A stretch of DNA of 55,077 nucleotides from Flavivirga aquimarina. GTDB lineage: Bacteria; Bacteroidota; Bacteroidia; Flavobacteriales; Flavobacteriaceae. Location: NCBI RefSeq assembly GCF_030540835.1, contig NZ_JAUOEK010000050.1, positions 1 through 55,077 of the forward strand. Reading direction: 5' to 3'. A model generated the notes under the pieces. It was not told the origin of the DNA. It searched no databases and saw only the letters and a list, made by a program, of their open reading frames with translations. The translations under genes were made by a program, and so were the position numbers. This document shows, one piece after another, positions 18,423-51,752 of this stretch (positions within the stretch are counted from its first letter, which is position 1; every line of letters begins with the position of its first letter).

Positions 18423-18445
18423 ACGTAATCAAAAAAATTATACAA

Positions 18446-20011: not shown

Positions 20012-20040
20012 TAGACTAATCTTCTATTCACTTTAATTCT

Positions 20041-20088: not shown

Positions 20089-20158
20089 AAATAATTTTGC
20101 TATAATAAATCTATATATAAGGTTAAATGCTTAATTTAAGTAAACCAAGATTTTTACC

Positions 20159-21685: not shown

Positions 21686-21713
21686 TCAATAGATTAATAC
21701 AATTTGAACAACA

Positions 21714-23285: not shown

Positions 23286-23292
23286 TTGGTAG

Positions 23293-26441: not shown

Positions 26442-26524
26442 TAAATTTACCACATAGTTAAGAGTTAGCGAGAAAAGGATACGTTATGGCGCTCTAAAAA
26501 TTTATAAACATAAAAGAATTGATT

Positions 26525-28042: not shown

Positions 28043-28091
28043 TATTGCTAAACTGTAATCAATTTACAATAATGGATTTTACATCAACACA

Positions 28092-29606: not shown

Positions 29607-29638
29607 ACAATAAGATAAAACGATAAAAATTTATAAAA

Positions 29639-31234: not shown

Positions 31235-31249
31235 ATAATTAGTATTTTA

Positions 31250-32545: not shown

Positions 32546-32638
32546 TTTATCGGCTTATACTTGATTGATTGAAGCCACTTCAATCATCTGTAGATGCCCA
32601 GACTCAATTTGCTTACAAAACAATTGAAAAAGATAATC

Positions 32639-34191: not shown

Positions 34192-34221
34192 GTTAGGGTT
34201 GTGTAAAATTATTGTGTTTTA
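34192..34221 (+). promoter_or_regulatory. Candidate ECF-type promoter of fecR (PUL2)
   Basis: GTTAGGG (34192-34198), 17 nt, GTTTTA (34216-34221), ending 20 nt before the preferred fecR ATG. Box sequences, 17-nt spacing and distance to the start codon equal those at PUL1. The shared TGTAAAAT inside the spacer adds weight. Confidence 0.5.
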
Positions 34222-34241
34222 GTAATATATCAAACCTAAAG

Positions 34242-35393
34242 ATGATTTCTAAACAGATACAAAGGCTAATAATTCAATACCTTAATAAACAGGCTACTCT
34301 TTTAGAAAGAGAAGAACTAGAACTATGGCTTGAAAATCCTAAAAACTATGAGTTGTTTAAAGGGTACTTAAAAATTAACTATCTAATCGATTTAAATATG
34401 GATATGTTTGATGTTGATGACTCAAAAAAGAAACTACTCGAGTTAATTGATAAAGAAAAAAAGGTATATAGATTACATAAGTATTTCAATGTGTTGAAGT
34501 ATGCAGCTGTTGTTATTCTGTTTATAGGAATAGGCTACTTATATCAAAATGGATATTTTACACAAACTTCAGAAATTATTATTCCTGCAGAAAGTATTAC
34601 ACTTCAATTAGAAAATGGAGATATAAAGATTTTGAATGATGACGGTACATCTCAGGTTGTAGATGCAAATGGAAACATAGTTGGTAATCATGAAGGAAAT
34701 CAATTAATTTATAGCAATAAGATTGATAAAAAAACTTTAGTGTATAATACATTAAAAGTTCCATATGGGAAACGTTTTAAAATTCAATTATCAGATGGTA
34801 CCAATGTTCATTTGAATGCAGGAACTTCCTTAAAATATCCAATAAAGTTTATTAAAGGAGAAAATCGTCAAGTATTCTTAGATGGCGAAGCATATTTTTC
34901 GGTAACTAAAGATGCATCACACCCATTTATAGTGAATGCAGATGAAGTAAACATAAGGGTTTTAGGAACACAGTTTAATGTGTCTTCGTATACAGAAGAT
35001 AGTAAAATAAGTACTGTTTTAGTAGAAGGTTCTGTAGATGTTTATCAAAAAGGAAATACCTACAATTCTAAAACTGCAACAAATCTAAAACCAGGTTTTA
35101 AAGCTGCATGGCAAAAACAAAATAATCAAATAGCTGTAGAAGCAGCAGATATAGAAATGCATACTGCTTGGATTAACGGTAAAATTGTATTTAGGCATAT
35201 TCCTTTTAAAAACATCATAAAAAAATTAGAACGCCATTATGATGTCGTTATAATAAATAATAACAAAGAATTAGGAGAAAAATTTGTTACTGCTAGTTTC
35301 GATATAGAGACTATTGAAAATATTTTCGAAATATTGAATGTTAGTTACAATATAAATTATTCTATTAATAATAATCAAATCATAATTAATTAA
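34242..35393 (+). CDS. FecR-type anti-sigma factor of PUL2
   Basis: A 383-residue anti-sigma protein counted from the ATG at 34242; the frame runs back to a TTG at 34212, but the ATG start gives the same length as the PUL1 paralogue. One membrane helix (~86-103, YAAVVILFIGIGYLYQNGYF) separates the sigma-binding domain from the periplasmic FecR domain (VPYGKRFKIQLSDGTNVHLNAGTSLKYP; VFLDGEAYFSVTKDASHPFIV). The DUF4974-like end carries HTAWINGKIVFRHIPFKN. It couples SusC of PUL2 to the divergent sigma factor. The strong resemblance to the PUL1 copy indicates duplication of the regulatory unit. Confidence 0.93.
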   Translation: MISKQIQRLIIQYLNKQATLLEREELELWLENPKNYELFKGYLKINYLIDLNMDMFDVDDSKKKLLELIDKEKKVYRLHKYFNVLKYAAVVILFIGIGYLYQNGYFTQTSEIIIPAESITLQLENGDIKILNDDGTSQVVDANGNIVGNHEGNQLIYSNKIDKKTLVYNTLKVPYGKRFKIQLSDGTNVHLNAGTSLKYPIKFIKGENRQVFLDGEAYFSVTKDASHPFIVNADEVNIRVLGTQFNVSSYTEDSKISTVLVEGSVDVYQKGNTYNSKTATNLKPGFKAAWQKQNNQIAVEAADIEMHTAWINGKIVFRHIPFKNIIKKLERHYDVVIINNNKELGEKFVTASFDIETIENIFEILNVSYNINYSINNNQIIIN

Positions 35394-35405: not shown

Positions 35406-35569
35406 CTTGCCTATGAATTAAAACAAACAAACTAAAAAAGAATATCACTTAATTTTTATTTGCCTTTAAAAACAACATTATTTCAATTTTTTTAGGCTAA
35501 TAAAAAAGGAAGATGCTAGGAACATCTTCCAATTAATAAGATAGTGATTAAATTAATTAACCACATAAT
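35406..35569 (+). promoter_or_regulatory. Conserved fecR-susC leader element (copy 2)
   Basis: Same order as copy 1: TTGCCTATGAATTAA with a two-codon ORF 20 nt after the fecR stop; a perfect 8-bp hairpin at 35508-35530 (GGAAGATG / CATCTTCC) with a 7-nt loop CTAGGAA, close to CTGTGAA in copy 1; then ATAGTGATTAAATTAATTAA at 35541. The region between them differs in sequence and length. Confidence 0.55.
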
Positions 35570-35582
35570 ACATAACAAAAAT

Positions 35583-38500
35583 ATGAAAAAAGTATTTAAG
35601 TTAAGGGAGTTCGCTTCTTTTTCATTAAAATTTGACTTAAAGATGAAACTCACCACACTCTTAATAATTGTAGCGTTATTTCAACTACAGGCTAACGAGT
35701 CATATAGTCAAAAAACGAAGATTACCCTCGACCTTGAAAATGTAAGTGTAGAAAATGTACTGGATAAAATTGAATCTCTTACAGAATTTAAATTTTTCTA
35801 TTTCGATAATGAGGTAGATTATAAACAAAAGGTTTCTTTAAAAGTAAAAAAAGAACCTATCTCAAAAGTCTTAAAAAGATTATTTGCTAATTCTAATATC
35901 GAATTTGTGGTTTTAGACAAACAAATTACACTTAGAGTTAAAAAAATAACAGTAGAAGACTTAAACTTAAAGTCTTCAGAAGTTAAAAAAGAAGATAATA
36001 GACAAGAAATAAGTATTACAGGGACAATTACAGATGCAAATGGACAACCATTACCAGGAGCAAACATCATAGAAAAAGGAACAAAAAACGGTACACAGAC
36101 CGATTTTGATGGAAATTTTTCAATGACAGTCACCGATGAAAATGCTATACTCGTTATTTCCTATTTAGGTTTTTTAACAAGTGAAATTTCTGTAAATGGG
36201 CAAAAAACAATTAATGTTAGTTTAAGTGAGGACTCAGCGAAATTAGAAGAAATCGTTGTAGTTGGTTACGGTTCGCAAAAAAAGGTAAACCTTACGGGAT
36301 CTGTAGTAAGTGTAAAAGGTGACGATATCAATAAACGTCCAATTACACAAGGATCACAGGCATTACAAGGTATAGCTTCAGGAGTTCAAATCAATACTAA
36401 TTCTGGAGAACCAGGTAATGACAACGCATCAATAAGTGTAAGAGGTATAGGTACCTTAAACAACTCAAATCCTTTAGTTTTAATTGATGGTATAGAAGGC
36501 CCGTTAAACAGTATCAATTCAAACGATATTGAAACTATTAACGTATTAAAAGATGCAGCTTCTGCGGCTATTTATGGAACAAGAGCGGCAAATGGTGTTA
36601 TATTAATTACCACAAAAAGAGGAAAAACAGGGGCGCCATCAATTACTTTTAATTCTTCTTACGGTATAACCTCTCCAACCGTTTTAGCAAATACGGTAAC
36701 AGATACTAGAACATATTTAGAAACCTATGTTGAAGCTGCTGCTTATTCTGGTAGAAATCATTCTTTTACACCAGAATTGATTGATGAAATTTCAGCTTTA
36801 GGGTCTAAAGACTGGTTAGATGATTATGTTAATAGTGGTTCAATACAAAATCACGATTTATCAATTTCAGGCGGGACAGAAAATGTTAAGTACCGTTGGT
36901 CTACAAGTTATTTAGATCAAGATAGTTTTTTAGAAGGAGGTTATTATTTAAAACGATTAAACACCCGTTTAAATTTAGATGTTAAATTAAATGATAAAAT
37001 TATAATAGGTACATCGTTATCCTTTGTTAATAGTGATAACAGACAAGCAACTAAAAATGATGCACCAGCTAATAGTACCCAACGTGGTATACCTGAAGGA
37101 GAAGGAATAATTCCTAGTTTTTCAAATGATGGAAACAAAGGAAGCTTTTTATTTACCATACTTAACGTGAGTGCGCCAAATGGGTTTGTTTATGATGATC
37201 TTGGACGATATGGAGGTACAGGTGGTGAATCAACAAGATCGCAACGTCATAACCCACAAGCATTAATTGATAATCAGTGGGTTGATATTGATAGAAATGA
37301 GTTTTTAGGAAATGCATTTATTGAATATGAACCCATTGAAGGTCTTAAGTTTAGGTATACATCTGCGATAAACTTTCAACAAGAATCATATAAAGATACA
37401 CGTTTAGAGCACGAACAATATGACAGATTTGGTAATAGATCGGCACTTCGAGAAGAAGGTAGTTTGTTAATTACTAGAGAATCGACAATATATAATAGAA
37501 CAAATTGGTTACAAGCTAATTATGAAAAATCTTTTGGAGATCATAATTTTAATTTTCTAGTTGGTGCTAACCAAGAAACCTCAGAAATTAGAAGAACTGC
37601 AACCTTCGAAAAAGGGTTTGGATCAACTTCGTTGGTTAAAGTAGGTAATGGTACAGAAGCTGTAGATTTAAATAATTATGATGGAGAATGGGGCTTACAG
37701 TCAGTTTTTGGGAGATTAAACTATAACTACAAAGATAAATATTTACTAGAAGCAAATATTAGACGAGATGGGTCTTCAAGATTTGGTTCAGAGAATAGAT
37801 GGGCTACTTTCCCGGGTATATCTGCTGGATATGTAATTTCTAATGAAAATTTTTGGAAAAGTGAGTTTCTTAGCCATCTAAAGTTAAGAGGATCGTGGGG
37901 GAGATTAGGTGTTCAAAGTACAAACTTGTACCCATTCGCATCAGAAGTTCTTTTAGGATCTGATTATAATGGAGTATCTGGCGCATCTTTAAATAAACTA
38001 GGGAATCCAAATTTACAATGGGAAGAAACCACAGTTACAGATATTGGTATCGATCTTAAGTTTTTTGGTGGAAAAGTGTCTCTAGAAGCAGATTATTTCT
38101 TTAAAGAAAGTGAAGGAATATTAACAGATTTAGCCAATCCACTTACTTCAGGAATTGATTCTGATATATCAGTGAATGCAGCTTCAATTGAAAATGAAGG
38201 ATTTGATTTAACCCTTAATCTACGTCATAATATTGACGATTTCAAAATGTCAGCTGGTTTAAATTTAACGCACGTTAAGAACAAAGTAACTTCTGTAGAT
38301 CCTAGTTTATCTGGCGAAGACGATCGAAGACGAGTAGGTCAAGGTTGGTGGATTAGAGGAGAAGCTATTAATTCTTTTTTCGGTCATGAATTTGGAGGTA
38401 TCTACCAAGTAGAAGATTTTGATACTAATGGCGATTTACTAGAGCCTTTAGACTTTAGCTGGTTAGGAAGTAATACGCCAAGACCTGGAGATATTAAATA

Positions 38501-39065
38501 TACCGATCAAAACAATGACGGCGCAATCAACGAAGCCGATATGGCTGTAATAGGTAATCCAAACCCAGAATGGATATATGGTTTTAGTTTTGATTTTGAA
38601 TATAAAGGATGGGATTTAGGTATGCTATTCCAAGGTACTGGTACTGCAAATTCATTAGTAAATAGATATACAGGTAATTTTGGGCATTCAGGTTTAAGAG
38701 AATATTGGTTAGACGGTTGGACTGAGGAAAACCGAAGCAATACGGTACCAAGAATATTTGTTGACAGAGATGGTTGGAATGGAAACACTATTGAAGGTGT
38801 TGGTCAACTTGCACAAACCTCTAATTGGATAATTGATAGACAATATTTAAGATTAAAGAATATTGTAGTTGGCTATACTATTTCAGAAAAGCTTGCAGAG
38901 AAATTATTTGTTGATTATTTAAGGATTTATTTAAGTGGGCAAAATTTATGGACTAATTCAAAATTAGATGATTTAGATCCTGAAAGAAATGCATTCACCA
39001 ATCACTTTGCTGCTACATTACCACAGGCTAAAGTTGTGACACTTGGAGTTAACTTAAAATTTTAA
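35583..39065 (+). CDS. SusC/RagA-family TonB-dependent transporter (PUL2), with STN domain
   Basis: A ~1160-residue outer-membrane transporter. Order of parts: extended N-terminus, signal peptide core (MKLTTLLIIVALFQLQANES, ~22-41), STN domain (ITLDLENVSVENVLDKIESL, ~47-115), carboxypeptidase-regulatory-like domain (GTITDANGQPLPGANIIEKG, ~145-165), SusC box (LEEIVVVGYGSQKKVNLTGSV), plug, and barrel ending VTLGVNLKF. The first 250 residues closely follow PUL1 SusC, while the barrel diverges, as expected if the signalling part is shared and the ligand is not. The preferred start is ATG 35583; the conserved in-frame GTG lies at 35544. Confidence 0.95.
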   Translation: MKKVFKLREFASFSLKFDLKMKLTTLLIIVALFQLQANESYSQKTKITLDLENVSVENVLDKIESLTEFKFFYFDNEVDYKQKVSLKVKKEPISKVLKRLFANSNIEFVVLDKQITLRVKKITVEDLNLKSSEVKKEDNRQEISITGTITDANGQPLPGANIIEKGTKNGTQTDFDGNFSMTVTDENAILVISYLGFLTSEISVNGQKTINVSLSEDSAKLEEIVVVGYGSQKKVNLTGSVVSVKGDDINKRPITQGSQALQGIASGVQINTNSGEPGNDNASISVRGIGTLNNSNPLVLIDGIEGPLNSINSNDIETINVLKDAASAAIYGTRAANGVILITTKRGKTGAPSITFNSSYGITSPTVLANTVTDTRTYLETYVEAAAYSGRNHSFTPELIDEISALGSKDWLDDYVNSGSIQNHDLSISGGTENVKYRWSTSYLDQDSFLEGGYYLKRLNTRLNLDVKLNDKIIIGTSLSFVNSDNRQATKNDAPANSTQRGIPEGEGIIPSFSNDGNKGSFLFTILNVSAPNGFVYDDLGRYGGTGGESTRSQRHNPQALIDNQWVDIDRNEFLGNAFIEYEPIEGLKFRYTSAINFQQESYKDTRLEHEQYDRFGNRSALREEGSLLITRESTIYNRTNWLQANYEKSFGDHNFNFLVGANQETSEIRRTATFEKGFGSTSLVKVGNGTEAVDLNNYDGEWGLQSVFGRLNYNYKDKYLLEANIRRDGSSRFGSENRWATFPGISAGYVISNENFWKSEFLSHLKLRGSWGRLGVQSTNLYPFASEVLLGSDYNGVSGASLNKLGNPNLQWEETTVTDIGIDLKFFGGKVSLEADYFFKESEGILTDLANPLTSGIDSDISVNAASIENEGFDLTLNLRHNIDDFKMSAGLNLTHVKNKVTSVDPSLSGEDDRRRVGQGWWIRGEAINSFFGHEFGGIYQVEDFDTNGDLLEPLDFSWLGSNTPRPGDIKYTDQNNDGAINEADMAVIGNPNPEWIYGFSFDFEYKGWDLGMLFQGTGTANSLVNRYTGNFGHSGLREYWLDGWTEENRSNTVPRIFVDRDGWNGNTIEGVGQLAQTSNWIIDRQYLRLKNIVVGYTISEKLAEKLFVDYLRIYLSGQNLWTNSKLDDLDPERNAFTNHFAATLPQAKVVTLGVNLKF

Positions 39066-39077: not shown

Positions 39078-40607
39078 ATGAAATTAATAATAAAAATATA
39101 CGTATTACTGATGCTTATTACCACAGCGTCATGTGATGATAATATAGAATTAGTGCCTATAAATTCTGTTGATGCTGATAGTTTTTATACATCAGTTGAA
39201 AATTTAAATGCAGGTTTGTATGGTATCTATGATGCATTACAACTTGAAGGTATGTATGGAGAACAAGTGCTGTTAGATGGTTTGAGTGATAATTGCATAG
39301 TCGATGATACTTTTGCGCCAGATTTTGCAACTTTTGCAGCAGGTAATCAAGTTGAAGTTTCACGTACATTTATAAGCCTTTATCAAGATCCTTATGTTTT
39401 AATACAACGCGCAAATTTATTATTAGATAACGCAGATGGAATACAAGGAATATCTAATTCTGATTTAGAATTAATTAAGGCAGAGGCAAAAGGGTTACGC
39501 GCTTTAGCATATATGCGATTGGTTTACTTGTTTGGCGATGTACCTTTTACAACAACTTCTATAGGTAGAGATGAATCTTTGCAAATAGATAGAACAAACC
39601 GTGATACCATTATTGATTTTATTCTAGCTGAATTTGCTGATGTCGCAACTGTTTTAGGAGCAACATCTTCAGATGGCAGATTAACATCACAGGCGATTCT
39701 AGGTTTGCATGCAAAAGTGATGCTATATGAAGCTAGATTTGGTAATAAAACTTGGTCAGAGGCTCTTAGTGCAATCAACGCATCAATAGCAGCTGCTAAT
39801 AGTGGAGGACATACTTTAGTAGATACAGATACTCCTGAAAATGATTACAAATCATTATTTACCGAAAATGGAGAATCAAATTCTGAGTATATTTTTTCAG
39901 TAAAATATAATTCTATTGACTTATCAAACTCTTATCAAGAAAGATACTCGTGGCAAGCAGGAGTGCTACTTATGTATGTGCACCAAAACTTTGCAGATAC
40001 TTTCGACTATGCAGACGGTTCAGATTACAACCCGGCTGATAATACATTTGTAGGAAGAGACCCTAGGTTAAGTGTTAACGTGATGCACGAAGGCCTTACT
40101 TTCGATGGTTTAACTTATAATGGTACAGATGTAGGCGGTTTTGTTGGAGCTAACTCACCAGGAACTGCTACAAACTTATTTCTTTATAAGTTTATTTCTA
40201 CCGACTTTTCTTCAACCTTTAACCTAGGGACATTAGATGTACCTGTGCTGCGTTATGCAGATTTATTATTGATGCAGGCAGAAGCATTGAATGAAACCAA
40301 TGCAGATGGTCATGCACCACTAAATTTAGTTAGAGATAGAGCTGGATTGCCTGCATTAGTAGGTCTTTCACAAGGAGATTTAAGAAACGAGATTATTCAC
40401 GAACGCAGAGTAGAATTAGCATTTGAAGGGCAACGTTGGTTCGATTTAGCTACGCTAGGTATTGCTGATGTCATTAATGATATAGTTGAAGAAGCTGAAT
40501 TTGTTGATAGAGGTTTTACCCCCAATAGAAATGAATTGTTGCCGATACCTCAAATAGAGCTTGAAGCAAACCCTAATTTGTTGCCACAAAATCCCGGTTA
40601 TAATTAA
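39078..40607 (+). CDS. SusD/RagB-family glycan-binding lipoprotein (PUL2)
   Basis: A 509-residue lipoprotein with lipobox ITTASC (Cys19). SusD features: FYTSVENLNAGLYGIYDAL, the TPR helix ELIKAEAKGLRALAYMRLVYLFGDVPF (~133-160), RYADLLLMQAEALNETNADG, LNLVRDRAGLPAL, and the closing LRNEIIHERRVELAFEGQRWFDLATLG. It lies 12 nt after susC. It is only distantly similar to the PUL1 SusD, in line with a different ligand. A strong hairpin follows. Confidence 0.95.
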   Translation: MKLIIKIYVLLMLITTASCDDNIELVPINSVDADSFYTSVENLNAGLYGIYDALQLEGMYGEQVLLDGLSDNCIVDDTFAPDFATFAAGNQVEVSRTFISLYQDPYVLIQRANLLLDNADGIQGISNSDLELIKAEAKGLRALAYMRLVYLFGDVPFTTTSIGRDESLQIDRTNRDTIIDFILAEFADVATVLGATSSDGRLTSQAILGLHAKVMLYEARFGNKTWSEALSAINASIAAANSGGHTLVDTDTPENDYKSLFTENGESNSEYIFSVKYNSIDLSNSYQERYSWQAGVLLMYVHQNFADTFDYADGSDYNPADNTFVGRDPRLSVNVMHEGLTFDGLTYNGTDVGGFVGANSPGTATNLFLYKFISTDFSSTFNLGTLDVPVLRYADLLLMQAEALNETNADGHAPLNLVRDRAGLPALVGLSQGDLRNEIIHERRVELAFEGQRWFDLATLGIADVINDIVEEAEFVDRGFTPNRNELLPIPQIELEANPNLLPQNPGYN

Positions 40608-40639
40608 TTTTTAAAGTTTTGTTTGTTTAATTAGTTTTT

Positions 40640-40672
40640 AATGCTGCTTTGTTATTATTACAAAGCAGCATT
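40640..40672 (+). terminator. Stem-loop terminator after susD (PUL2)
   Basis: A perfect 13-bp stem (AATGCTGCTTTGT / ACAAAGCAGCATT) with a 7-nt loop, 32 nt after the susD stop. The T-tail is short (TTT then mixed). The remaining 210 nt up to the esterase-GDPD gene show no sure promoter. Confidence 0.7.
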
Positions 40673-40885
40673 TCATAAATAGAGCTAGACAAAAAATTAA
40701 AATAGATACCCCTCCTTATTTTTAAGAACCATTTTTTTAATGAATAGGGTTAGTTAAAAAATATTAACTGGAAGCATTAATGAGCTGTGGTTATAAAGAG
40801 TAATAAATACTTGCTTACACTTTGTTAAACCAGTAAAAAGGCACTTAGTTTAATAAAATTAATAAATAATTATAGTAAAGGATAT

Positions 40886-42535
40886 ATGCTTTTAAATAAC
40901 TTACTAAGTAGAATATATAAAAATTCAGTTAGAATTATCATAGTAACGATTCTATTTCTACAACAAAACGTAAATGCACAAAAAAAACTATTCGTTTTTA
41001 CAGGCCAATCTAATATGGCTGGAAGAGCAGCAATAGAAGAAGTAGATTTTAAAAAAATACCTAATGTCTATTTACTTAATAATGAAGGCGATTTTATTCC
41101 AGCACACAATCCATTAAACCTGCATTCAAATATTAAAAAAGAAACCTATCGGCAACGTTTAGGCCCCGTATATTCTTTTGCAAAAGCAATACATCGAGCA
41201 TACCCTAAAGATTCTATTCTACTAATAGTAAACGCTAGGGGAGGAACAGCTATTGAGCGTTTTATGAAAGGAGATTCTACAGCGTATTACAAAAAAACAA
41301 TTGACCGTATAAAGCATGCACAACAAAAAGAACCATCCGCAACATTAGAGGCTATTGTGTGGCATCAAGGCGAATCTAACAGAAATAATTATCAAACATA
41401 CCTTCCAAATCTAAATAAACTTATCGCAGACTACAGAGCAGATTTAAACAGCCCAGATCTTCCATTTATATGTGGACAATTAGGATTCTGGAACCCAGAA
41501 TATGAACACATACGCAATGAGATTTCAAAAATAGAAGCAACCATACCTAATGCTTTTTTAGTGTCTTCAGACGGGCTCACCAATTTTGATGAACATCATT
41601 TTAATAGCAAATCTCAACGTTTGTTAGGACTCCGTTATGCCAAGAAATATTTAGAAATTAAAAATCTTCCCAATCATGACATTTTAAACGCCACCAATAC
41701 AAGCTCTTTTGCTTCCTTAAAAGAAATGCTACAAAAACCAATAGACAATTACGTCATGGTAGCAGCCCATAGAGGAGATTGGCGCAATGCCCCTGAAAAC
41801 TCATTACAATCTATAGACATGGCTATAGCAATGGGTGTAGATATTGTTGAAATTGATATCGCGGTAACAGCAGATAATATTCCTATTTTAATGCATGACA
41901 AAACATTAAACCGTACAACAAATTGTAAAGGTCTAGTTAAAGACCATACCTATGCATCTATATCAAAATGTAAATTAAAAGATGGTATAGATGATTTAAC
42001 AGGAAGAAATATACCCACATTAGAGGAAGCTCTAAAAAAGGTAAAAGGAAAAATTCTTATTAATATAGATAAAGGAGAAGACCATATCCCTTTAGTTTAT
42101 GCTCTTTTGAAAAAAACAAAAACCTTAGACCAAGCTATTTTTAGTAGTTATTATCCCTATGAAAAACTAAAAAATCTTTCAGGTAGCTTGATTGATAGTG
42201 TGCTCTACATGCCCAAAATAAAACACGATACTAAAGGACCTGAAAAATATTTAAAAACCTTTTTGAAGAATATCCAATCTGTAATTCTACAAACAAGAGC
42301 ATTAACAGAACAAGATTCTTTGTTGCAAATGATACCTAATGCAAAAAGTGAAGGCTTGTGGTTATGGATGAATACATTAGAGCCTTTTCATAGCGCTGGG
42401 CATACCGATGAGAAAATAGTAGAAGACCCAGATACGCATTTAGGTTGGGTACTAGATCAAGGTACAACGATTATCCAAACAGATAGACCCCAAATAGTAT
42501 TAGAATATTTAAGAAAAAAAGGATTACATAATTAA
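40886..42535 (+). CDS. Fusion: SGNH/SASA carbohydrate esterase + glycerophosphodiester phosphodiesterase
   Basis: A 549-residue exported two-domain enzyme (signal peptide ending NVNAQ). Residues ~32-270 are an SGNH/SASA esterase: FVFTGQSNMAGRA with nucleophile Ser42, IVWHQGESN (~155), and the Asp/His pair probably in the FDEHHFNSKSQ segment (~232-242). Residues ~289-549 are a GDPD domain with every hallmark: AAHRGDWRNAPENS, VEIDIAVTADNIPILMHD, and the TIM-barrel ending TIIQTDRP. GDPD enzymes cut glycerophosphodiesters to an alcohol plus glycerol-3-phosphate. The gene is followed after 15 nt by a PafA-like phosphatase, so the pair could release free phosphate. The natural substrate is unknown. 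Confidence 0.88.
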   Translation: MLLNNLLSRIYKNSVRIIIVTILFLQQNVNAQKKLFVFTGQSNMAGRAAIEEVDFKKIPNVYLLNNEGDFIPAHNPLNLHSNIKKETYRQRLGPVYSFAKAIHRAYPKDSILLIVNARGGTAIERFMKGDSTAYYKKTIDRIKHAQQKEPSATLEAIVWHQGESNRNNYQTYLPNLNKLIADYRADLNSPDLPFICGQLGFWNPEYEHIRNEISKIEATIPNAFLVSSDGLTNFDEHHFNSKSQRLLGLRYAKKYLEIKNLPNHDILNATNTSSFASLKEMLQKPIDNYVMVAAHRGDWRNAPENSLQSIDMAIAMGVDIVEIDIAVTADNIPILMHDKTLNRTTNCKGLVKDHTYASISKCKLKDGIDDLTGRNIPTLEEALKKVKGKILINIDKGEDHIPLVYALLKKTKTLDQAIFSSYYPYEKLKNLSGSLIDSVLYMPKIKHDTKGPEKYLKTFLKNIQSVILQTRALTEQDSLLQMIPNAKSEGLWLWMNTLEPFHSAGHTDEKIVEDPDTHLGWVLDQGTTIIQTDRPQIVLEYLRKKGLHN

Positions 42536-42550
42536 TACAATACCAGCCGA

Positions 42551-44185
42551 ATGAGATTATTTTTTATACTATGTTTTCTTAGTCTTAATGTTTTGTATGC
42601 CCAACAGGAAAAGAAACCAAAATTAGTAGTGGGCATTGTTATAGACCAAATGCGAGCAGAATACTTATACCGTTTTCAAGATAATTATTCAGAAGAAGGC
42701 TTTAAAAGACTATTAAAAGAAGGATTTAATGTAAAAAACACACACTACAATTATATACCAACCGCTACAGGGCCTGGACACGCTTCCATTTATACAGGAA
42801 CAACACCAGAAAATCATGGTATTGTAAATAATGATTGGTATGATCGTGCGTTAAAAAAAATGACCTATTGTGCAGTTGATACAACAGTAACATTGGTAGA
42901 TTCCGATAAAAAGCAAACACATAATTTTACAATAGGAAATAGATCACCAAGAAATTTAAAAACAACAACCATTACAGATGAGCTAAAATTATTTAGCAAC
43001 GGCAGATCTAAAATTATAGGTATATCATTAAAAGATAGAGGCGCTATTTTTCCAGCAGGTCATTTGGCAGATGCAGCATATTGGTATAATATTGAAAACG
43101 GAAATTTTGTATCAAGTACATACTATACAAAGCAACTTCCAGAATGGCTCATAGCATTTAATAACAAACATAAAGCAGATTCTTTATTAAATCTTACATG
43201 GAACACTTTTTTGCCCATAGATAAATACATAAAAAGTGGAGTAGATAATGCAACTTTTGAAAAGGTTTATGAAGGAAGAGAAATACCTGTCTTACCATAT
43301 AACTTAAAAAAACTTAGAAAAGATAATGGTAACTTTAAGCTACTTGCAGAAGTACCTTATGGAAATACATTAATAACTCAATTAGCTGCAGAGGCTATTA
43401 AAAAAGAAAATTTAGGACAAGGAAAAGAAACCGATTTTTTAACGATAAGTTATTCTGCTACAGATTACTTAGGGCATTATTTTGGAATTAGATCCAAAGA
43501 AGTAGAAGACACCTATGTTAGAATGGATCGCGAAATAGCTTTGCTTTTAAAAACATTAGATAAAGAAGTGGGTACTAACAATTATACTTTGTTTTTAACA
43601 GCAGACCATGGAGCAAGTGATAACCCCCATTTTTTAAAACAATCTAGATTACCTGGTGAATTTTATTCTCCAAAGAAGATAAAAGAAGAGCTGAACACCT
43701 ATTTGTCCAGAGAATTTGGAGAATCAGACTATATTGCTTTTATCGATAAAACTCAGGTCTATTTTAATAAAATGACAACCCCTAAAGAATTAATAATTAA
43801 AAAAGCGGCCTCTTTTTTAAAAACAATAAAAGGAGTTAAAGCCGTTTTTACACCAAATGTACCAGAGAGCAGTTTGTATAAAAACAACATACAAAACGTA
43901 ATTAATAACAGTTTTTATTTAGAAAATTCTGGAGATATTTTAATGCACTTTCATTCCGGTTGGATGGTAGAAAGACCATATGGAACAACACACGGTACTA
44001 TGTATACAAGCGATACCCATGTGCCGTTATTATGGTACGGGCATAACATTCCAAAAGGAGAAACTGTAAAAAAATATGTGATTACACAAATTGCACCAAC
44101 ACTTTCCATGTTGTTAAATATACCATTGCCAAATACAAGTAATAGTAGCCCAATTGAAGAGTTGTTTAAAACAATAAAAAAATAA
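42551..44185 (+). CDS. PafA-like alkaline phosphatase (nucleotide pyrophosphatase/phosphodiesterase superfamily)
   Basis: A 544-residue exported phosphatase (signal peptide ending VLYAQ). It follows the Elizabethkingia PafA plan: LVVGIVIDQMRAEYLYRF (metal Asp), nucleophile Thr73 in PTATGPGHASIYTG, ENHGIVNNDWYDR, SYSATDYLGHYFG (two metal ligands), and TADHGASDNPHFL. The C-terminal His ligand lies in ERPYGTTHGTMYTSDTHVPLLWYG. PafA is a broad, calcium-free phosphomonoesterase made in the periplasm. Placed 15 nt after the GDPD fusion, it probably removes the phosphate that the diesterase exposes. A diesterase role cannot be excluded. Confidence 0.88.
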   Translation: MRLFFILCFLSLNVLYAQQEKKPKLVVGIVIDQMRAEYLYRFQDNYSEEGFKRLLKEGFNVKNTHYNYIPTATGPGHASIYTGTTPENHGIVNNDWYDRALKKMTYCAVDTTVTLVDSDKKQTHNFTIGNRSPRNLKTTTITDELKLFSNGRSKIIGISLKDRGAIFPAGHLADAAYWYNIENGNFVSSTYYTKQLPEWLIAFNNKHKADSLLNLTWNTFLPIDKYIKSGVDNATFEKVYEGREIPVLPYNLKKLRKDNGNFKLLAEVPYGNTLITQLAAEAIKKENLGQGKETDFLTISYSATDYLGHYFGIRSKEVEDTYVRMDREIALLLKTLDKEVGTNNYTLFLTADHGASDNPHFLKQSRLPGEFYSPKKIKEELNTYLSREFGESDYIAFIDKTQVYFNKMTTPKELIIKKAASFLKTIKGVKAVFTPNVPESSLYKNNIQNVINNSFYLENSGDILMHFHSGWMVERPYGTTHGTMYTSDTHVPLLWYGHNIPKGETVKKYVITQIAPTLSMLLNIPLPNTSNSSPIEELFKTIKK

Positions 44186-44243: not shown

Positions 44244-44981
44244 TTATATGTTTATCAAATAACTTTTCTCGTCAGCCTTTTTATAAATATCCATGCTGAA
44301 AGTATAAAGCTGTGCAGGTTTTTTCGAAACACCTACCTGTTTTTCATTTAAAGCAATGATGTATTTTTTTTTAATTACTTTTCTTCTAAAATTTCTATTA
44401 TCAATCTCAATACCTAATACCGCTTCATATAAATTTTGTAATTCGTTAATCGTAAACTTGTTAGGTAGTAATTTAAAAACTAAAGGCTCATGTAAAGATT
44501 TTAATTTCAAGTCTTCATGAGCTTCAGCAATTATTTGCTCATGGTCAAAGCCTAATTCCGGAAGGTTTAGAATAGGGAACCATTGCGGATTATATTTTCT
44601 GTTTTCTAAATTCACATCATTGGTAGAAATAAGAAAATAATAAGCGACAGTAAGAGTTCGTAAATTAAAATTTTCACTATCTGCCCAAATAATATCTTTA
44701 GGGTTCATAAGTCTATTAGGGCTTCCATAGGTCTTAAATTGCTTTTTATACAAATGATCCAGACCCGTTAATTCTTTCATAACTCTAGAAGCAGATTGAT
44801 CTAAAGTCTCATTCTCAAACATGTGGTATCCTGTTAATTTAAAGTCATCAATGATTAGCTCATTACTGTCCTTAGATTTTAATTTTCGTTCTATAAGTAA
44901 AACATTTAAAGATTTTGAGCGAATATTAAATCCAAAGACGACGCAGTCTACAGAAATATTTGGAATTATTTTAGGATTCAT
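44244..44981 (-). CDS. NrtR-like transcriptional regulator with degenerate Nudix domain
   Basis: A 245-residue protein with an N-terminal Nudix fold and a C-terminal winged helix. The Nudix box region reads GYHMFENETLDQSASRVMKELTGL: two of the catalytic Glu positions of the REUxEExGU core are Val and Leu, so hydrolysis is unlikely and ligand sensing is expected. The winged helix includes FTINELQNLYEAVLGIEIDNRNFRRKVIKKKYI (~175-207), typical of NrtR-family regulators; Bacteroidota relatives control sugar catabolism. It is divergent from the NCS1 transporter and mannitol dehydrogenase genes, and a 21-bp palindrome lies between, so it probably controls that operon. The ligand is unknown. Confidence 0.85.
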   Translation of the reverse strand: MNPKIIPNISVDCVVFGFNIRSKSLNVLLIERKLKSKDSNELIIDDFKLTGYHMFENETLDQSASRVMKELTGLDHLYKKQFKTYGSPNRLMNPKDIIWADSENFNLRTLTVAYYFLISTNDVNLENRKYNPQWFPILNLPELGFDHEQIIAEAHEDLKLKSLHEPLVFKLLPNKFTINELQNLYEAVLGIEIDNRNFRRKVIKKKYIIALNEKQVGVSKKPAQLYTFSMDIYKKADEKSYLINI

Positions 44982-45360: not shown

Positions 45361-47076
45361 ATGGATATTGAAAAAGCACCGCAAGTTTTCGAAGACCTGA
45401 ATGAAGAACAATTGCCAATCGCTAAGCATAAATTACACAAGTGGACTCATTTTTTAGGACTATATGCAGGTGAACATGTAGCAGCAACCGAATTTGTTAT
45501 TGGTGCCACTTTTGTAGCACTAGGAGCAAAAACCATGGATATTCTCTTGGGGTTACTAATAGGTAATATATTAGCCATATTAAGTTGGTCATTAATAACG
45601 ACTCCTATTGCGGTTGAGACTCGTATGAGTCTTTACACTTATTTAAACAAAATTGCTGGCGATAAAATGACCAAGCTCTATAATTGGGCGAACGTTATTA
45701 TTTTTACAGTCATATCAGCAGCAATGATAACCGTATCGTCAACGGCGGTACGTTTTGCTTTCGATATTCCTGCCCAATTAAATTGGTATCCTACCAATTT
45801 ATGGTTTGTATTAGTAGTTCTTATTGTTGGTATTGTAGTGGTTTTCGTTGCTATTTTTGGTTTTAATGCAGTTTCTAAATTTTCAGGAATCTGTGCGCCT
45901 TGGTTGTTTGTTATGTTTACTAGTGGAGCATTGGTACTCATGCCAGCCTTATCTTTAGAAGTAATAGGCAAGAGCATGTTAGGAGGCTGGGAAGATTTTA
46001 TGGCTATCGGCAACCAATCTATTTGGACAGGTACTAATAGTAACGGAGAATCTGGCATAGGTCTATTAGAAGTTATTGGTTTTGCTTGGGCAGCCAATAC
46101 CATAACCCATTTTGGATTGATTGACATGGCATTGTTTCGCTATGCAAAAAAGAAAACTTACGGATGGACAACCAGCTCAGGTATGTTGTTCGGACATTAT
46201 ATTGCATGGATAGCCGCAGGAATTATGGGAGCAGGTACCGCAGTACTCGTTGGGAAATCCATTGTAGCTTTAGATCCGGGAGATGTAGCTTATTACGCCT
46301 TGGGATGGTCTGGGTTTGTAATTGTAATCGTTGCAGGTTGGACCACAGCGAACGCTAATCTCTATCGCGCTGGTTTAGCAGCACAAGCTATATTTACACA
46401 ATATTCAAGAAAAACAACCACATTGGTGGTAGGTTTGGTTACGGTAATCGTTGCCTGTTTTCCTTTTGTATTCACACAAATACTTCCACTATTAACTTAC
46501 GCAGGATTATTGGTAGTTCCAGTAGGAGCCATTGTTTTTGCTGAACACCAGATTTTTCCAAGAATCGGATTAACCCGTTACTGGTCGTCGTATCGTCAAC
46601 TCACCACTAGCACACCAGCAATTACCTCATGGGGTCTTGGCTTAATCTTTGGATTTGGATTAGACTTTTTAAATGTCATGTCATTTTATTATTTGTTCAT
46701 CCCTACTTGGATCTTTACAATTTTAATTTACACCCTTTTAGCATCAAAATTCGGAGCGAAGGATAAATACCCTGAAGAAGAAAAGCAAGAAGAAATTCGT
46801 AACCAAAACATTGAAAAATATCAAGAGCAACAGGCAGAAACCGAACCAATTTTAATAAAAGACAATTCAATATTTACAAAACTCCTTCAAGGGATTGCCA
46901 TACTGGTATTAGGAATTACTTTGGTTTTGGCAGGTATAACAATGTTCGCTAGCCCTGATGAAATAGTATATACATCAAATAGAGAGACATTTTATCAATA
47001 TGCCTTTATATGCACTATCGTTTATTTTATAACAGCCTATTGGGCAATGCAAAGAAGAAATAAAAAACAAGAATAA
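45361..47076 (+). CDS. NCS1-family (cytosine/purine permease-like) transporter
   Basis: A 571-residue inner-membrane protein with about 12 helices and a hydrophilic loop near 470-495 rich in Glu/Gln. The opening WTHFLGLYAGEHVAATEFVIGATF and the internal segments GFAWAANTITHFGLIDMALFRYAKK and GWTTANANLYRAGLAAQA match the NCS1 nucleobase/allantoin/vitamin symporter family. Its last base overlaps the start of the mannitol-dehydrogenase-type gene (TAATGG), so they are translationally coupled. NCS1 members are not known to me as hexitol carriers, so the link suggests either a polyol-transporting branch or an unexpected partnership. Substrate is unproven. Confidence 0.82.
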   Translation: MDIEKAPQVFEDLNEEQLPIAKHKLHKWTHFLGLYAGEHVAATEFVIGATFVALGAKTMDILLGLLIGNILAILSWSLITTPIAVETRMSLYTYLNKIAGDKMTKLYNWANVIIFTVISAAMITVSSTAVRFAFDIPAQLNWYPTNLWFVLVVLIVGIVVVFVAIFGFNAVSKFSGICAPWLFVMFTSGALVLMPALSLEVIGKSMLGGWEDFMAIGNQSIWTGTNSNGESGIGLLEVIGFAWAANTITHFGLIDMALFRYAKKKTYGWTTSSGMLFGHYIAWIAAGIMGAGTAVLVGKSIVALDPGDVAYYALGWSGFVIVIVAGWTTANANLYRAGLAAQAIFTQYSRKTTTLVVGLVTVIVACFPFVFTQILPLLTYAGLLVVPVGAIVFAEHQIFPRIGLTRYWSSYRQLTTSTPAITSWGLGLIFGFGLDFLNVMSFYYLFIPTWIFTILIYTLLASKFGAKDKYPEEEKQEEIRNQNIEKYQEQQAETEPILIKDNSIFTKLLQGIAILVLGITLVLAGITMFASPDEIVYTSNRETFYQYAFICTIVYFITAYWAMQRRNKKQE

Positions 47077-48569
47077 TGGATAAACCTATTCCACTAAATC
47101 AAGAAAACCTCTCGCAGATTGCAGAAGTAGTTTCTTGTCCAACCTATGATAGAAGTAAAGTTAATGCAGGAATTGTACATGTAGGTATTGGAGGTTTTCA
47201 TAGAGCACATCAGGCTTATTATACCAACGAACTTCTTGAAAAAGGCGGACACCATAATTGGGGTATCTGTGGAATTGCATTATTGCCTTTTGATGATAAA
47301 ATATATCAAGTATTAAAAAATCAAGATGGATTGTATACTGTCATGATTAAAGAATTGGATGGTAGTTTATCCATAAAAGTTATCGGATCTATTGTCGAAT
47401 ACCTGTTCGCTCCTAACAATCCTTTAATAGTGATAGAGAAAATGGCTGATCCAAACACCAGAATTATCAGTCTTACCATCACAGAAGGAGGTTATAACTA
47501 CGACGAAGCTACAGGAGAATTCATTTTTGAGAATCCTAACATACAGCATGATTTAACACATCCCGATGCACCCAAAACTATTTTTGGATATCTGGCTCAA
47601 GCCTTTAAGCTAAGAAAAGAAAGAGGCACACAGGGTTGTACAATTCAGTCTTGCGATAATATTCAAGGGAATGGACATGTTACCAAGAAGATGGTATTAA
47701 GCTATATAAAAAAGGCAGAACCAGATTTGGTAGCATGGGTAAATTCTAATATAGCATTTCCCAACAGCATGGTAGATCGTATTACGCCAGTAACAACAAA
47801 AGATGATATTGAATTATTAAAAGATAAAACAGGCATTCAAGACGATTGGCCTGTAGTTTGCGAACCTTTTCTGCAATGGGTTATAGAAGATGATTTCAGC
47901 TCAGGAAGACCAGCATGGGAGGAAGTAGGTGCGCAGTTTGTAAGCGATGTAGCACCCTATGAGCGTATGAAATTGAGCTTACTAAATGCCGGACATTCAG
48001 TGCTAGGTATACTAGGAGCATTAGTAGGTTACAATACAATAGACGAAGTAGTCAATGATTTAGATATTAAAACATTCTTGATTACTTTTATGGATAAAGA
48101 AGTTACCCCATCACTTGGTGAATTAAAGGGTATAGACCTTAAAAGTTACAAAGCATCTTTAATCGAACGATTCGGCAACCAAAATATTAAAGATCAAGTC
48201 ACTCGCATTTGCTCAGAAAGTTCTGCGAAAATCCCCAAGTTTCTATTGCCTACAGTTAAATATCAGCTTTCAAATGAGGGCGAATTTAGCTATTCAGCAT
48301 TAGTAATAGCAGCATGGGCGATATATAATAAAGGGCTAAATGAAAATGGAGATTTGTTAGAAATCTCAGACGCTATGAAGGATGAATTAAAGCAAAAAGC
48401 ATTAATGTCAATAAACAATCCAAAGTTATTTCTAGAACTAGAGTCTGTTTTTGGTGTATTGAAAGAATCAAGTCAATTTGTGGAAGCTTATGAAAGAGCC
48501 TATAATAAAATCGTAAAGTATGGTATAAAAAAGTGTGTTAAAGATATAAATAGCAGTCTTAAAAAATAA
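47076..48569 (+). CDS. Mannitol 2-dehydrogenase-type polyol dehydrogenase
   Basis: A 497-residue cytosolic dehydrogenase of the long-chain mannitol dehydrogenase family (mannitol to fructose with NAD; relatives include fructuronate and altronate reductases). The NAD-binding start is GIVHVGIGGFHRAHQAYY (~33-50). The conserved TITEGGYNYDEATG segment, SCDNIQGNGHVTKKMVLSY, and the catalytic K-x5-N-x2-H set in KLSLLNAGHSVLG (~305-317) are all present. It is coupled to the upstream transporter. With the fructokinase-like gene at 53.3 kb it completes mannitol to fructose to fructose-6-phosphate. Mannitol is favoured over hexuronates because of the fructokinase and the family length, but this is inference. 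Confidence 0.85.
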   Translation: MDKPIPLNQENLSQIAEVVSCPTYDRSKVNAGIVHVGIGGFHRAHQAYYTNELLEKGGHHNWGICGIALLPFDDKIYQVLKNQDGLYTVMIKELDGSLSIKVIGSIVEYLFAPNNPLIVIEKMADPNTRIISLTITEGGYNYDEATGEFIFENPNIQHDLTHPDAPKTIFGYLAQAFKLRKERGTQGCTIQSCDNIQGNGHVTKKMVLSYIKKAEPDLVAWVNSNIAFPNSMVDRITPVTTKDDIELLKDKTGIQDDWPVVCEPFLQWVIEDDFSSGRPAWEEVGAQFVSDVAPYERMKLSLLNAGHSVLGILGALVGYNTIDEVVNDLDIKTFLITFMDKEVTPSLGELKGIDLKSYKASLIERFGNQNIKDQVTRICSESSAKIPKFLLPTVKYQLSNEGEFSYSALVIAAWAIYNKGLNENGDLLEISDAMKDELKQKALMSINNPKLFLELESVFGVLKESSQFVEAYERAYNKIVKYGIKKCVKDINSSLKK

Positions 48570-48685: not shown

Positions 48686-50152
48686 ATGAAAAACTTTAGT
48701 TTAGTCATCATTTATTTATTGGTTATAACACCAGTATTTTCTCAGTACAAGGAATTTAAAACCCCTCAAATAAATTCTGAAGAATGGCAGATAATGAACC
48801 AGTCAAAACAGGATACTAAAGAATGGTTTAAAGATGCTAAGTATGGCATGTTTATTCATTGGGGACTTTACTCCAACCCAGGAGGGATTTGGAAAGGAGA
48901 AAAAATTCACACTATGCGACCACCTCATATAGCAGAGTGGATTATGTATGCTGCTAAAATACCAAGAGCAGAATATGAGCAATTAGCAAAACAATTTAAT
49001 CCAACAAAATTTGATGCTGAAGAAATTGCGAAACTAGCAAAAGACGCGGGGATGAAATATATTGTTATTACCTCCAAGCATCATGATGGATTTGCCCTAT
49101 TTGATTCAAAAGTGAGCGAATACGACATTATGGATGCCTCCCCATTTAAAAGAGACATTATAAAAGAGTTACATGCAGCATGTAAAAAGTACGGATTAGA
49201 GTTTGGACTCTATTATTCGCATAATATAGATTGGCACGATGCATCAGATAACCAATCTGAATTGAGTGCCAAACTGAATCCAAACATTTCAGAACACGCA
49301 AAAACTTTTGGGTCTAACACTTGGGATCCAAGTCCTAATAGCTATGAAGATTATCTAAAAGACAAAGCGCTTCCGCAAGTAAAAGAGATAATGACTCAAT
49401 ATTCAGATTTAAAATTACTTTGGTATGATATGCCTTGGAGAATGAATGCAGAGCAATGTTATGACTTTTATAAAGTAGTATATGATATTCAACCACAGGT
49501 TTTAGTTAATGAACGTATAGGGCAAGGTTTTGGAGACTATTTAATACCTAGCGATAACGAAATTCCATTAGCCTATGGAGATGAGCAAAAACCTTGGGAA
49601 ACCGTAGGGACTTTTAATAATTCATGGGGTTACAATTCCTATGATAATGATTGGAAATCGCCCATAGAAGTACTTTATTGGTTAGCAGAAGTTGTTTCAA
49701 GAGGAGGGAATTATATGCTCAACATTGGCCCGACAGGAGAAGGTGAGGTGCCAATAGAAAGTGTAAAGAATTTAAGAGAGATTGGTAAATGGTTATCAGT
49801 AAACGGAGAAGCTATCTATGGGACTAGGAGGTGGAAAATTATTCGTGAAGGAACAACCAGTTTACATTATAAAGATACAGAAGACAGGGCAGAAAAAGGA
49901 TTTCAAAATAATTTTACTAAAGAAGATTTTTGGTTTACTCAAAAAGATAATAATGTTTATGCCATTTCTTTAGCTAAACCCGAATCAGAAATAGTTATAA
50001 AATCGTTAGAACCTTCAGTAGGAACCGTTAAAAATGTAGAGGTTTTAGGAGTAGGGAAGGTTAAATATAAACAGGAAAAAGATGGTTTAATTGTCAAAAT
50101 ACCAAAAGATTTCCTGTCAGAAAACGGTTTTGTAGTGAAATTAGAATTATAA
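48686..50152 (+). CDS. GH29 alpha-L-fucosidase (flanked by direct repeats)
   Basis: A 488-residue exported fucosidase (signal peptide ending TPVFSQ). GH29 features: [21 protein letters not shown] (~47-67), [23 protein letters not shown] with the His pair, [17 protein letters not shown]-type strand, LLWYDMPW with nucleophile Asp248, and [20 protein letters not shown] (~335-354). The C-terminal beta domain is present, so the enzyme looks complete. It has signal peptidase I processing, unlike the two lipoprotein GH29s that follow. It lies between two ~105-bp direct repeats, and a dead copy of its 5' end sits at 33.4 kb. Confidence 0.92.
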
Positions 50153-50157
50153 AAAAT

Positions 50158-50262
50158 AGTACAAAAAAATGTGCTAAAGATATCATTAGTAATAGTTAGA
50201 ATAATTTAGAAAATAAAATTAATCATGATGAAAAAAATAATAGTTGCCAAAGCCCTTATTCC
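50158..50262 (+). repeat. Direct repeat, right copy (dehydrogenase 3' remnant plus live GH29 start)
   Basis: Aligns with 48526-48640. The first part (AAAAAATGTGCTAAAGATAT, then a stop) is a remnant of the mannitol dehydrogenase 3' end, reading KKCAKDIISNS where the gene has KKCVKDINSSLKK. TAATTTAGAAAA is shared, and the copy runs into the real start of the next GH29. Confidence 0.8.
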
Positions 50263-51658
50263 TATTCTTGTTTGTGTTTTCTTATTATCATGTAAGGAAA
50301 ATAAAAAGGAAGAAACAATTCAAGTTGAAAGTGTAAATTATTTAGAAGAATCTAAAGAAGATTTTAATAAAAGGATGACCTGGTGGCGAGAAGCAAAGTT
50401 TGGTATGTTTATTCACTGGGGCCCTTATGCAGTTCCAGCAGGTATATACAAAGGAGCTGAGGTTGATCATATAGGTGAGTGGATTATGGACACTGCTGAG
50501 ATTCCTATTAGTGAGTACGAAGAATTTGCAAGACAATTCAATCCTGTAGATTTTGATGCAGATAATTGGGTTAGTATAATGAAAAAAGCAGGAATGAAGT
50601 ATGTTGTGATTACATCCAAACACCATGACGGGTTTTCTTTAGGAGACTCAAAAGTATCAGAATATGATATGGTGGATTATACCCCGTATGGAAAAGATAT
50701 TTTAAAACAATTATCTGAAGCCTGTAAAAAACAAGGAGTTAAGTTTGGTGTATACCATTCCATTATGGATTGGCATCACCCACAAGCACAAGCAATTAAT
50801 GAACCCAAGTATAATGTTTGGAGAAAGGACAGCACAAAGGCTAATCCTAAATTTCCAATATACTACGAAGAGTATTTAAAGCCTCAGTTAAAAGAATTAA
50901 TAACAAACTACGACCCAGAAATTCTTTGGTTTGATGGCGAATGGATTCCAGCATTCACACATGAGCAAGGTCAGGCCTTATATCAATATGTTCGATCTTT
51001 AAAACCAGATATTATCATTAATAATCGTGTAGATAAAGGACGTCAAGGTATGCAAGGCATGAGTAAAGATGATCTAAACTATGCAGGAGATTTTGGAACA
51101 CCAGAGCAAGAGATTTTAGAAGGCACTTCCACATTAGATTGGGAATCCTGTATGACTATGAATGACACCTGGGGATACAAGAAAAATGACGAAAATTGGA
51201 AATCTGTAAAAACATTGATTCATAATTTGATTGATGTAGCAGCCAAAGGAGGTAACTACCTTCTTAATGTAGGTCCAACCGCCGAAGGGCTTATTCCTGC
51301 ACCAAGTGTTGAACGATTAGAACATATAGGTGAATGGCTTAGCGTAAACCACGAAGCAATATTTAGTACAGAAAGATTAGCAAAAAACTATAAACAAGGA
51401 GAAACAATAAAATACACCAAAAAGAAAGGAGAATCCGTTTATTTTGCAATTTCTATAGAAAAACCTGAAGATGAAATAATATTTAATTATGTGCAACCAA
51501 ATGCCGATTCAGAAGTTAAGCTTTTAGGCTCAAATGTGCCCTTGAAATGGCAATTTGTAGAAGGCAAAGGATTAACTGTTGAGGTGCCTAAAGCTGTATT
51601 AGAAGAAGTTGGAGAAACCGAGGCTTGGACTTTTATGATTGAAGGAAAAGAATTATAG
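50225..51658 (+). CDS. GH29 alpha-L-fucosidase, lipoprotein
   Basis: A 477-residue lipoprotein (lipobox VFLLSC, Cys23, then KENKKEE). Two adjacent ATGs (50225, 50228) are possible starts. GH29 motifs: WWREAKFGMFIHWGPYAVPAG (~52-72), [48 protein letters not shown] with nucleophile Asp237, and DVAAKGGNYLLNVGPTAEG (~340). The sequence is similar over its whole length to the next gene, clearly a tandem duplicate. It ends with a short beta domain. It probably acts at the cell surface on fucose-bearing oligosaccharides; linkage specificity cannot be read. Confidence 0.92.
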   Translation: MMKKIIVAKALIPILVCVFLLSCKENKKEETIQVESVNYLEESKEDFNKRMTWWREAKFGMFIHWGPYAVPAGIYKGAEVDHIGEWIMDTAEIPISEYEEFARQFNPVDFDADNWVSIMKKAGMKYVVITSKHHDGFSLGDSKVSEYDMVDYTPYGKDILKQLSEACKKQGVKFGVYHSIMDWHHPQAQAINEPKYNVWRKDSTKANPKFPIYYEEYLKPQLKELITNYDPEILWFDGEWIPAFTHEQGQALYQYVRSLKPDIIINNRVDKGRQGMQGMSKDDLNYAGDFGTPEQEILEGTSTLDWESCMTMNDTWGYKKNDENWKSVKTLIHNLIDVAAKGGNYLLNVGPTAEGLIPAPSVERLEHIGEWLSVNHEAIFSTERLAKNYKQGETIKYTKKKGESVYFAISIEKPEDEIIFNYVQPNADSEVKLLGSNVPLKWQFVEGKGLTVEVPKAVLEEVGETEAWTFMIEGKEL

Positions 51659-51752
51659 CATGATCCATTTGCACAGTAAAATACTAACAATATTGTACCT
51701 GAATTATTTGAATTTAGAAACAATAAAACTAGCGGTATAAAAAATAATCAAG

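Follow-up and report, generated by a model that had tools for sequence, protein, structure and literature searches.

A SusCD-linked esterase-GDPD fusion in Flavivirga aquimarina and the probable uptake of a small ester-decorated phosphodiester

What does a SusCD pair import when the genes behind it encode an esterase and phosphoesterases and no glycosidase? The question is raised by a locus of Flavivirga aquimarina on contig NZ_JAUOEK010000050.1 (assembly GCF_030540835.1), of which we analyzed a stretch of 55,077 nt, called the window throughout. Here a SusCD pair is followed by one gene that joins a SASA-type esterase to a glycerophosphodiester phosphodiesterase (GDPD), and then by a gene for a PafA-type alkaline phosphatase. 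We think it probable that this locus takes up a small phosphodiester carrying ester groups and serves its deacylation, diester cleavage and dephosphorylation, with mannitol-type use of a product in three loci. The window was compared with four further loci that carry the same fusion (L001, L002, L003 and L004), giving five fused loci in all. The features of the unit in the window are:

33530-34111, minus strand (divergent): extracytoplasmic function (ECF) sigma factor; Pfam Sigma70_r2 and r4_2 over cut-off
34212-35393, plus strand: FecR-type anti-sigma factor; Pfam FecR and FecR_C; present in 5/5 fused loci
35544-39065, plus strand: TonB-dependent transporter SusC, which carries an STN signaling domain at its N-terminus; TIGR04056 867 bits, STN over Pfam cut-off
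39078-40607, plus strand: SusD surface ligand-binding lipoprotein; Pfam SusD_RagB and SusD-like_3 over cut-off
40633-40682, plus strand: hairpin, possible attenuator; -18.5 kcal/mol in a 50-nt stretch, 0/40 mononucleotide shuffles as low
40886-42535, plus strand: SASA esterase-GDPD/DUF4996 fusion; a single open frame of 549 amino acids, predicted periplasmic
42551-44185, plus strand: PafA-type alkaline phosphatase; 544 amino acids, predicted periplasmic

The initial annotation had described a SusCD pair, then the fusion, then PafA 15 nt further on, and had stated that the unit holds no glycosidase. The first statement was borne out by the open frames, Pfam and NCBIfam, and the second by the finding that none of the six proteins from the sigma factor to PafA matched a glycosidase family (Pfam and NCBIfam, E 0.01). 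Between FecR and PafA there is no extra frame of at least 120 amino acids in any of the five fused loci (overlapping frames excluded), so that no glycosidase lies within the unit, and no surface enzyme was recognized from the sigma factor to PafA.

The fused relatives came from a scan covering 84,980 species with one genome apiece; it reaches close relatives only, and the window's own genome was possibly omitted from it. Conservation of the gene set in other genomes was looked for and found in these four loci of three genomes: L001 and L004 belong to one isolate (G207, contigs C21 and C20), L002 to a Maribacter and L003 to Flavivirga jejuensis, making five loci in four genomes with the window. 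The order FecR, SusC, SusD, SASA/GDPD, PafA is identical in 5/5, which is beyond chance; the other four fusions are 68-83% identical. The full fusion was present in 2 of 397 genomes of the family (the window's own and G207), in a search that scored at most three first-look candidates per genome, and in 1 of 395 genomes of a phylum sample, the window's own. The fused gene set is real and conserved, yet rare.

Both halves of the fusion are clear family members, with Pfam SASA at residues 33-256 (184.9 bits, cut-off 24.8), GDPD at 295-395 (93.1 bits, cut-off 23.6) and DUF4996 at 441-542 (85.7 bits, cut-off 33.7). Residues 278-549 align to the solved GDPD 3i10 through the last residue (E 3e-62), so the GDPD domain is complete, as had been proposed. 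Eight positions (S42, D235, H238, H295, E322, D324, H337 and D395) are invariant in 5/5 fused proteins, and alignment to solved relatives shows that all five keep the GQSN serine and Asp/His pair of SASA and the HRG, ENS, E-x-D and HD residues of GDPD; we take the HRG and HD histidines to be catalytic and ENS and the E/D residues to be metal ligands. The catalytic residues of the fusion thus look intact. A predicted structure of the fusion (5 rows) had a mean predicted local distance difference test score (pLDDT) of 63.3, too weak for use.

The 544-amino-acid protein passed the NCBIfam model NF042991 alk_phos_PafA (686.7 against a cut-off of 650), and among solved structures it comes nearest to PafA (5tj3, E 2e-128). 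When aligned to 5tj3, D32, T73, N94, K161, R163, D305, H309, D352, H353 and H481 are invariant in 7/7 sequences; these are presumably the nucleophile Thr, the Asn, the Lys/Arg pair and the metal ligands. Inspection by eye found signal peptides without a lipobox on the fusion and on PafA, and for this reason both are probably periplasmic, while the SusD N-terminus is lipobox-like (by eye). A second PafA, 46% identical, is encoded elsewhere in the window's genome. The PafA of L002 is 60% identical to that of the window, compared with 77-81% for its SusC, SusD and fusion, and in a tree it groups with the PafA of a SusCD-GDPD-PafA locus, L047 (100/100), apart from the other fused loci. Retention of the position of PafA in L002 despite the change in its sequence argues that PafA is part of the function.

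The pairing of FecR with an ECF sigma factor (NCBIfam Sig70_bacteroi1 122.8 bits, slightly below the cut-off of 126.4), together with the STN domain that SusC carries in the window and in L002, suggests substrate-driven induction. The 278-nt gap between SusD and the esterase gene contains the strong hairpin. Such a hairpin is found in 4/5 fused loci, the window included (0/40 shuffles as low; the exception is L003, with 22/40), and may set enzyme levels lower than those of SusCD. A flavobacterial promoter pattern had no match in this gap or upstream of SusC.

Behind PafA lies a mannitol-type cassette with a divergent regulator:

44244-44981, minus strand (divergent from the cassette): NrtR/AraR-type regulator; Pfam NrtR_WHD and AraR_C
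45361-47076, plus strand: membrane permease, weakly NCS1/CytX-like, presumed to carry mannitol; TIGR02358 18.4 bits against a cut-off of 309.85
47076-48569, plus strand: long-chain polyol dehydrogenase, closest to mannitol 2-dehydrogenase; mannitol dehydrogenase 1lj8, E 2e-138
53265-54152, plus strand: PfkB-family kinase, perhaps a fructokinase; Pfam PfkB

The best solved match of the dehydrogenase is 1lj8, its best NCBIfam models are fructuronate reductase and arabinitol dehydrogenase (both below cut-off), and its substrate is most likely mannitol, with fructuronate or arabinitol as alternatives. The kinase scored 120 bits with the ribokinase and 115 bits with the fructokinase model of NCBIfam, below the cut-offs; three genes of glycoside hydrolase family 29 (GH29) separate it from the dehydrogenase gene in the window, and the two genes are immediate neighbors in L001, L002, L100, L115 and L135. 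Same-strand genes for the permease, the mannitol 2-dehydrogenase-like enzyme and PfkB stand behind PafA in L001 and L002, the first of them starting 24 and 32 nt after it. The cassette is downstream of the set in 3/5 fused loci (window, L001 and L002). We rejected chance adjacency of the mannitol-type genes because three genomes have them beside the set, though a shared niche could also have brought them together. The regulator probably belongs to the cassette itself. It adjoins the cassette also in L100 and L115 (2/20 of the regions described below) and lies near a version with an ATP-binding cassette (ABC) transporter in L135; since it accompanies dehydrogenase-PfkB genes with two transporter types, it may be a mannitol regulator.

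Permease relatives at 74% identity or more occur in 24 of 299 family genomes, counting the window's own and G207 (74-95% in the 23 other than the window's own), and regions from 20 of the remaining 22 were fetched. In the permease tree the clade that contains the window, L001 and L002 copies (100/99) also takes in the unlinked L106, the sister of L002. In the dehydrogenase tree the same four fall with the unlinked L100, L115 and L135 into a clade of seven (100/100), where the window and L001 are nearer to L100, L115 and L135 (87/81) and L002 pairs with L106. Because the linked copies form no clade by themselves, the cassette may have been joined to the phosphodiester set more than once, or lost. 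The Maribacter genome of L002 holds, besides the linked pair, an unlinked permease and dehydrogenase that fall elsewhere in the trees, so the linked pair is an extra one, which speaks for a link. We noted that the permease is 95% identical between the window and L001 (13280-14998), compared with 75-84% for SusC, SusD, the fusion, PafA, the dehydrogenase and the kinase, which may reflect strong constraint or an exchange of the permease gene; the sigma factors of the two loci are 48% and the FecR proteins 36% identical.

From these parts a route can be proposed. SusD would bind an acylated phosphodiester outside the cell, import through SusC would be driven by TonB energy, and the N-terminal domain of SusC would relay a signal via FecR to the ECF sigma factor; the locus would in this way be switched on by its own substrate. 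In the periplasm the SASA domain would take off the acyl group, most simply acetyl, and the fused GDPD would split the phosphodiester into an alcohol and a phosphomonoester; PafA would release the phosphate. Where the cassette stands beside the set (the window and two relatives), the permease, the mannitol 2-dehydrogenase-like enzyme and PfkB would take up the freed polyol, most likely mannitol, and convert it to fructose 6-phosphate, in which case carbon, beyond phosphate alone, would be the prize; the locus probably serves carbon supply. A small or pre-cut substrate fits better than an intact polymer, since the enzymes look periplasmic and the unit has no recognized surface enzyme. The core of what the initial annotation proposed, TonB-fed phosphodiester uptake with deacylation, diester cleavage and phosphate release, is supported by the intact active sites, the 5/5 conservation and the SusCD-GDPD loci of relatives. 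Its mention of teichoic-acid-like material gained no support: nothing in the sequence points to teichoic acid in particular, and we rejected it as a named substrate, having found no sequence feature specific to wall-polymer degradation.

Several observations weigh against this proposal. Mannitol-type genes are missing from the stretches of L003 and L004 (2/5), a dehydrogenase and a kinase of F. jejuensis (L003) being encoded elsewhere, beside an ABC-type permease gene. In the window the opposite-strand regulator separates PafA from the cassette, and in 20/20 fetched regions the permease stands beside the dehydrogenase with no esterase-GDPD or PafA in the stretch. The linked copies are no clade of their own in either tree. 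Pfam, NCBIfam and the PDB gave no firm permease family (no match at 0.01 in Pfam, none in the PDB up to E 1), and its structure prediction (3 rows; mean pLDDT 33.5) is too weak for use. The sigma gene adjoins FecR in 4/5 fused loci and is absent there in L004. The STN domain is found on 2/5 SusC proteins and was not reported at 1e-5 for those of L001, L003 and L004. Lastly, the third GDPD metal position, which we assume to hold a ligand, is Asp here and in 3i10 and Glu in 2pz0.

The free-standing pairs, the cassette's own regulator in the window and the scattered linked copies would also suit a different account, in which a locus of the phosphate utilization system (Pus) type scavenges phosphorus under phosphate starvation, drawing phosphate from the head groups of deacylated phospholipids or from similar diesters, and the mannitol genes are no part of it but neighbors through a shared seaweed niche. 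The fucosidases by the cassette in the window and L106, which point to algal debris generally, agree with this, as do the published PusCD loci, in which SusCD stands with a phosphatase or phosphodiesterases and which, in the parts of PMC8115612 considered here, are induced under depletion of inorganic phosphate (Pi) only. Against it, the FecR/ECF pair suggests substrate sensing, and the mannitol-type genes follow PafA on the same strand within 24 and 32 nt in two genomes. Starvation control would moreover be odd for PafA, which is Pi-insensitive and constitutively made in flavobacteria according to the relevant part of PMC8812569. We regard this account as possible but rather unlikely. A narrower form of the uptake proposal, dedicated catabolism of O-acylated mannitol-phosphodiesters (fragments of capsule, lipopolysaccharide or wall, or a small algal compound) by a single two-domain enzyme for deacylation and cleavage, PafA and use of mannitol via fructose, with phosphate as a by-product of carbon uptake, appears doubtful. 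The mannitol link that the initial annotation drew, as speculation, from the neighboring genes is stronger than first thought where the cassette follows the set (3/5 loci) and is weakened by its absence in 2/5 and its mostly free-standing occurrence; the mannitol end of the locus is suggestive.

The wider kin of the two domains bear on whether the enzymes serve a glycan. The 20 regions around family-search matches comprised 1 fused, 3 SASA-only and 16 GDPD-only regions. SusC was present in 14 of the 16 (13 of them also with a recognized SusD), the exceptions being L043 and L052, the latter a contig of 6.9 kb; with two regions from outside the family (L129 and L130, both with SusC and SusD) the count is 16/18, and SusCD feeding GDPD is a recurring arrangement. 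A major facilitator superfamily (MFS) protein of the GlpT/UhpC/PgtP kind adjoins GDPD in 6/16 and in L129, hence in 7/18 (in L039 and L046 these models gave the best NCBIfam scores, all below cut-off). PafA adjoins GDPD in L047 and lies 5 kb away in L044 (2/16). Since best matches were chosen, the counts are not representative of GDPD genes at large; DUF4996 itself turned up in 4/198 phylum genomes. The nearest other SusCD found (L062, ~60%) is followed by a calcineurin-type phosphoesterase.

The locus could conversely belong to a glycan polysaccharide utilization locus (PUL), its esterase and phosphodiesterase merely trimming acetyl and phosphoglycerol from an oligosaccharide degraded by enzymes encoded elsewhere. 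Some of the nearest unfused SASA relatives do stand beside GH2 or GH43 genes (the SASA-only L042 and L057) or sulfatase-similar proteins (L133 and L134), and immediately upstream in the window is a PUL whose products include a sulfatase and a GH29-like protein. The unit itself has no glycosidase, however, the GDPD-only relatives have organophosphate-type transporters, and in the third SASA-only region (L051) SusCD immediately precedes the esterase and no glycosidase was identified (the other neighbors were not scanned); we judge this explanation quite improbable. Judged by the neighborhoods of the SASA-only and GDPD-only relatives, the fusion looks as if a carbohydrate esterase had been joined to the GDPD that recurs in SusCD loci.

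Four genes were scanned in the upstream PUL (15090-33201):

20159-21685: sulfatase
23293-24876: distant GH29-like protein
28092-29606: SASA protein
31250-32545: purple-acid-phosphatase-like protein, 1 kb from the sigma gene

The last of these places phosphoesterases on both sides of the sigma factor. A 138-amino-acid frame at 32785-33201 matches the sulfatase C-terminal end alone (SGSH_C, below cut-off) and is possibly a gene remnant. Downstream, three GH29 alpha-L-fucosidase genes (48686-53198) start 4.5 kb after PafA. In L106 (6454-12349), which lacks the esterase-GDPD, a fucosidase 79% identical to the third of these follows the permease-dehydrogenase pair, and another GH29 gene precedes it. 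Two genes after PafA, L004 encodes a 2282-amino-acid protein (14551-21399); by eye, its last third contains a GDPD-like stretch (HRG...ENS), and it has a sorting tail.

How does the locus compare with systems already described? It has the SusC/SusD tandem pair of a PUL and lacks, from the sigma factor to PafA, the glycoside hydrolase or polysaccharide lyase of such a unit, the nearest GH29 gene starting 4.5 kb downstream. In the open-licence literature we found neither a SASA-GDPD fusion nor a mannitol link, no paper joining PafA, SusD and GDPD or GDPD, PUL and SusD, and none joining teichoic acid, SusD and a phosphodiesterase; part of PMC9131120 draws a GDPD gene beside a PUL with starch enzymes. 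The locus suggests that SusCD importers may serve phosphodiesters as carbon sources, beyond glycans or phosphate scavenging, and that DUF4996-type GDPD genes behind SusCD mark a recurring locus class of which we found no description in open-licence papers. Were the mannitol step true, it would name a sink for the mannitol-phosphate material of capsules, lipopolysaccharides and cell walls to which PMC10918830 refers in the portion consulted.

Of the single components, the GDPD aligns over its entire domain to the DUF4996-type 3i10 and differs in being fused to a SASA esterase. The PafA resembles those of Elizabethkingia and F. johnsoniae in passing the equivalog cut-off and matching the active-site residues of 5tj3, and differs in standing behind SusCD and an esterase-GDPD. 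The cassette has the same genes as the flavobacterial permease and mannitol 2-dehydrogenase-like cassettes (sometimes with PfkB and NrtR), which are free-standing in 20/20 regions, whereas in 3/5 fused loci it is joined to the phosphodiester set.

The closest known system is Pus (PusCD, PUSI/PUSII) of Flavobacterium, in which, as far as the covered parts of PMC8115612 go, SusCD-like pairs stand with phosphodiesterases or phosphatases and are induced under Pi depletion. Of the open-licence papers searched for PusCD together with SusCD, PMC8115612 and PMC8812569 alone contained both. The covered parts of the former also mention a PhoA with an additional PF13653 domain, and they disagree with the corresponding parts of PMC8812569 on which F. 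johnsoniae PhoA carries it. The window locus shares with Pus the SusCD-like pair next to a phosphodiesterase and a phosphomonoesterase and the lack of glycosidases, a likeness of gene content. Pus is defined by its induction under Pi depletion; the covered parts describe no esterase-GDPD fusion or mannitol genes, and the window has the fusion and mannitol-type genes. The gene content suggests that the locus works in parts like a Pus locus. The initial annotation had called the system undescribed; since SusCD with phosphodiesterases or phosphatases has been published as Pus, at least in the sections covered, it is not undescribed in principle. The locus is an extension of the known SusCD-phosphoesterase loci, a rare gene set built on a known principle.

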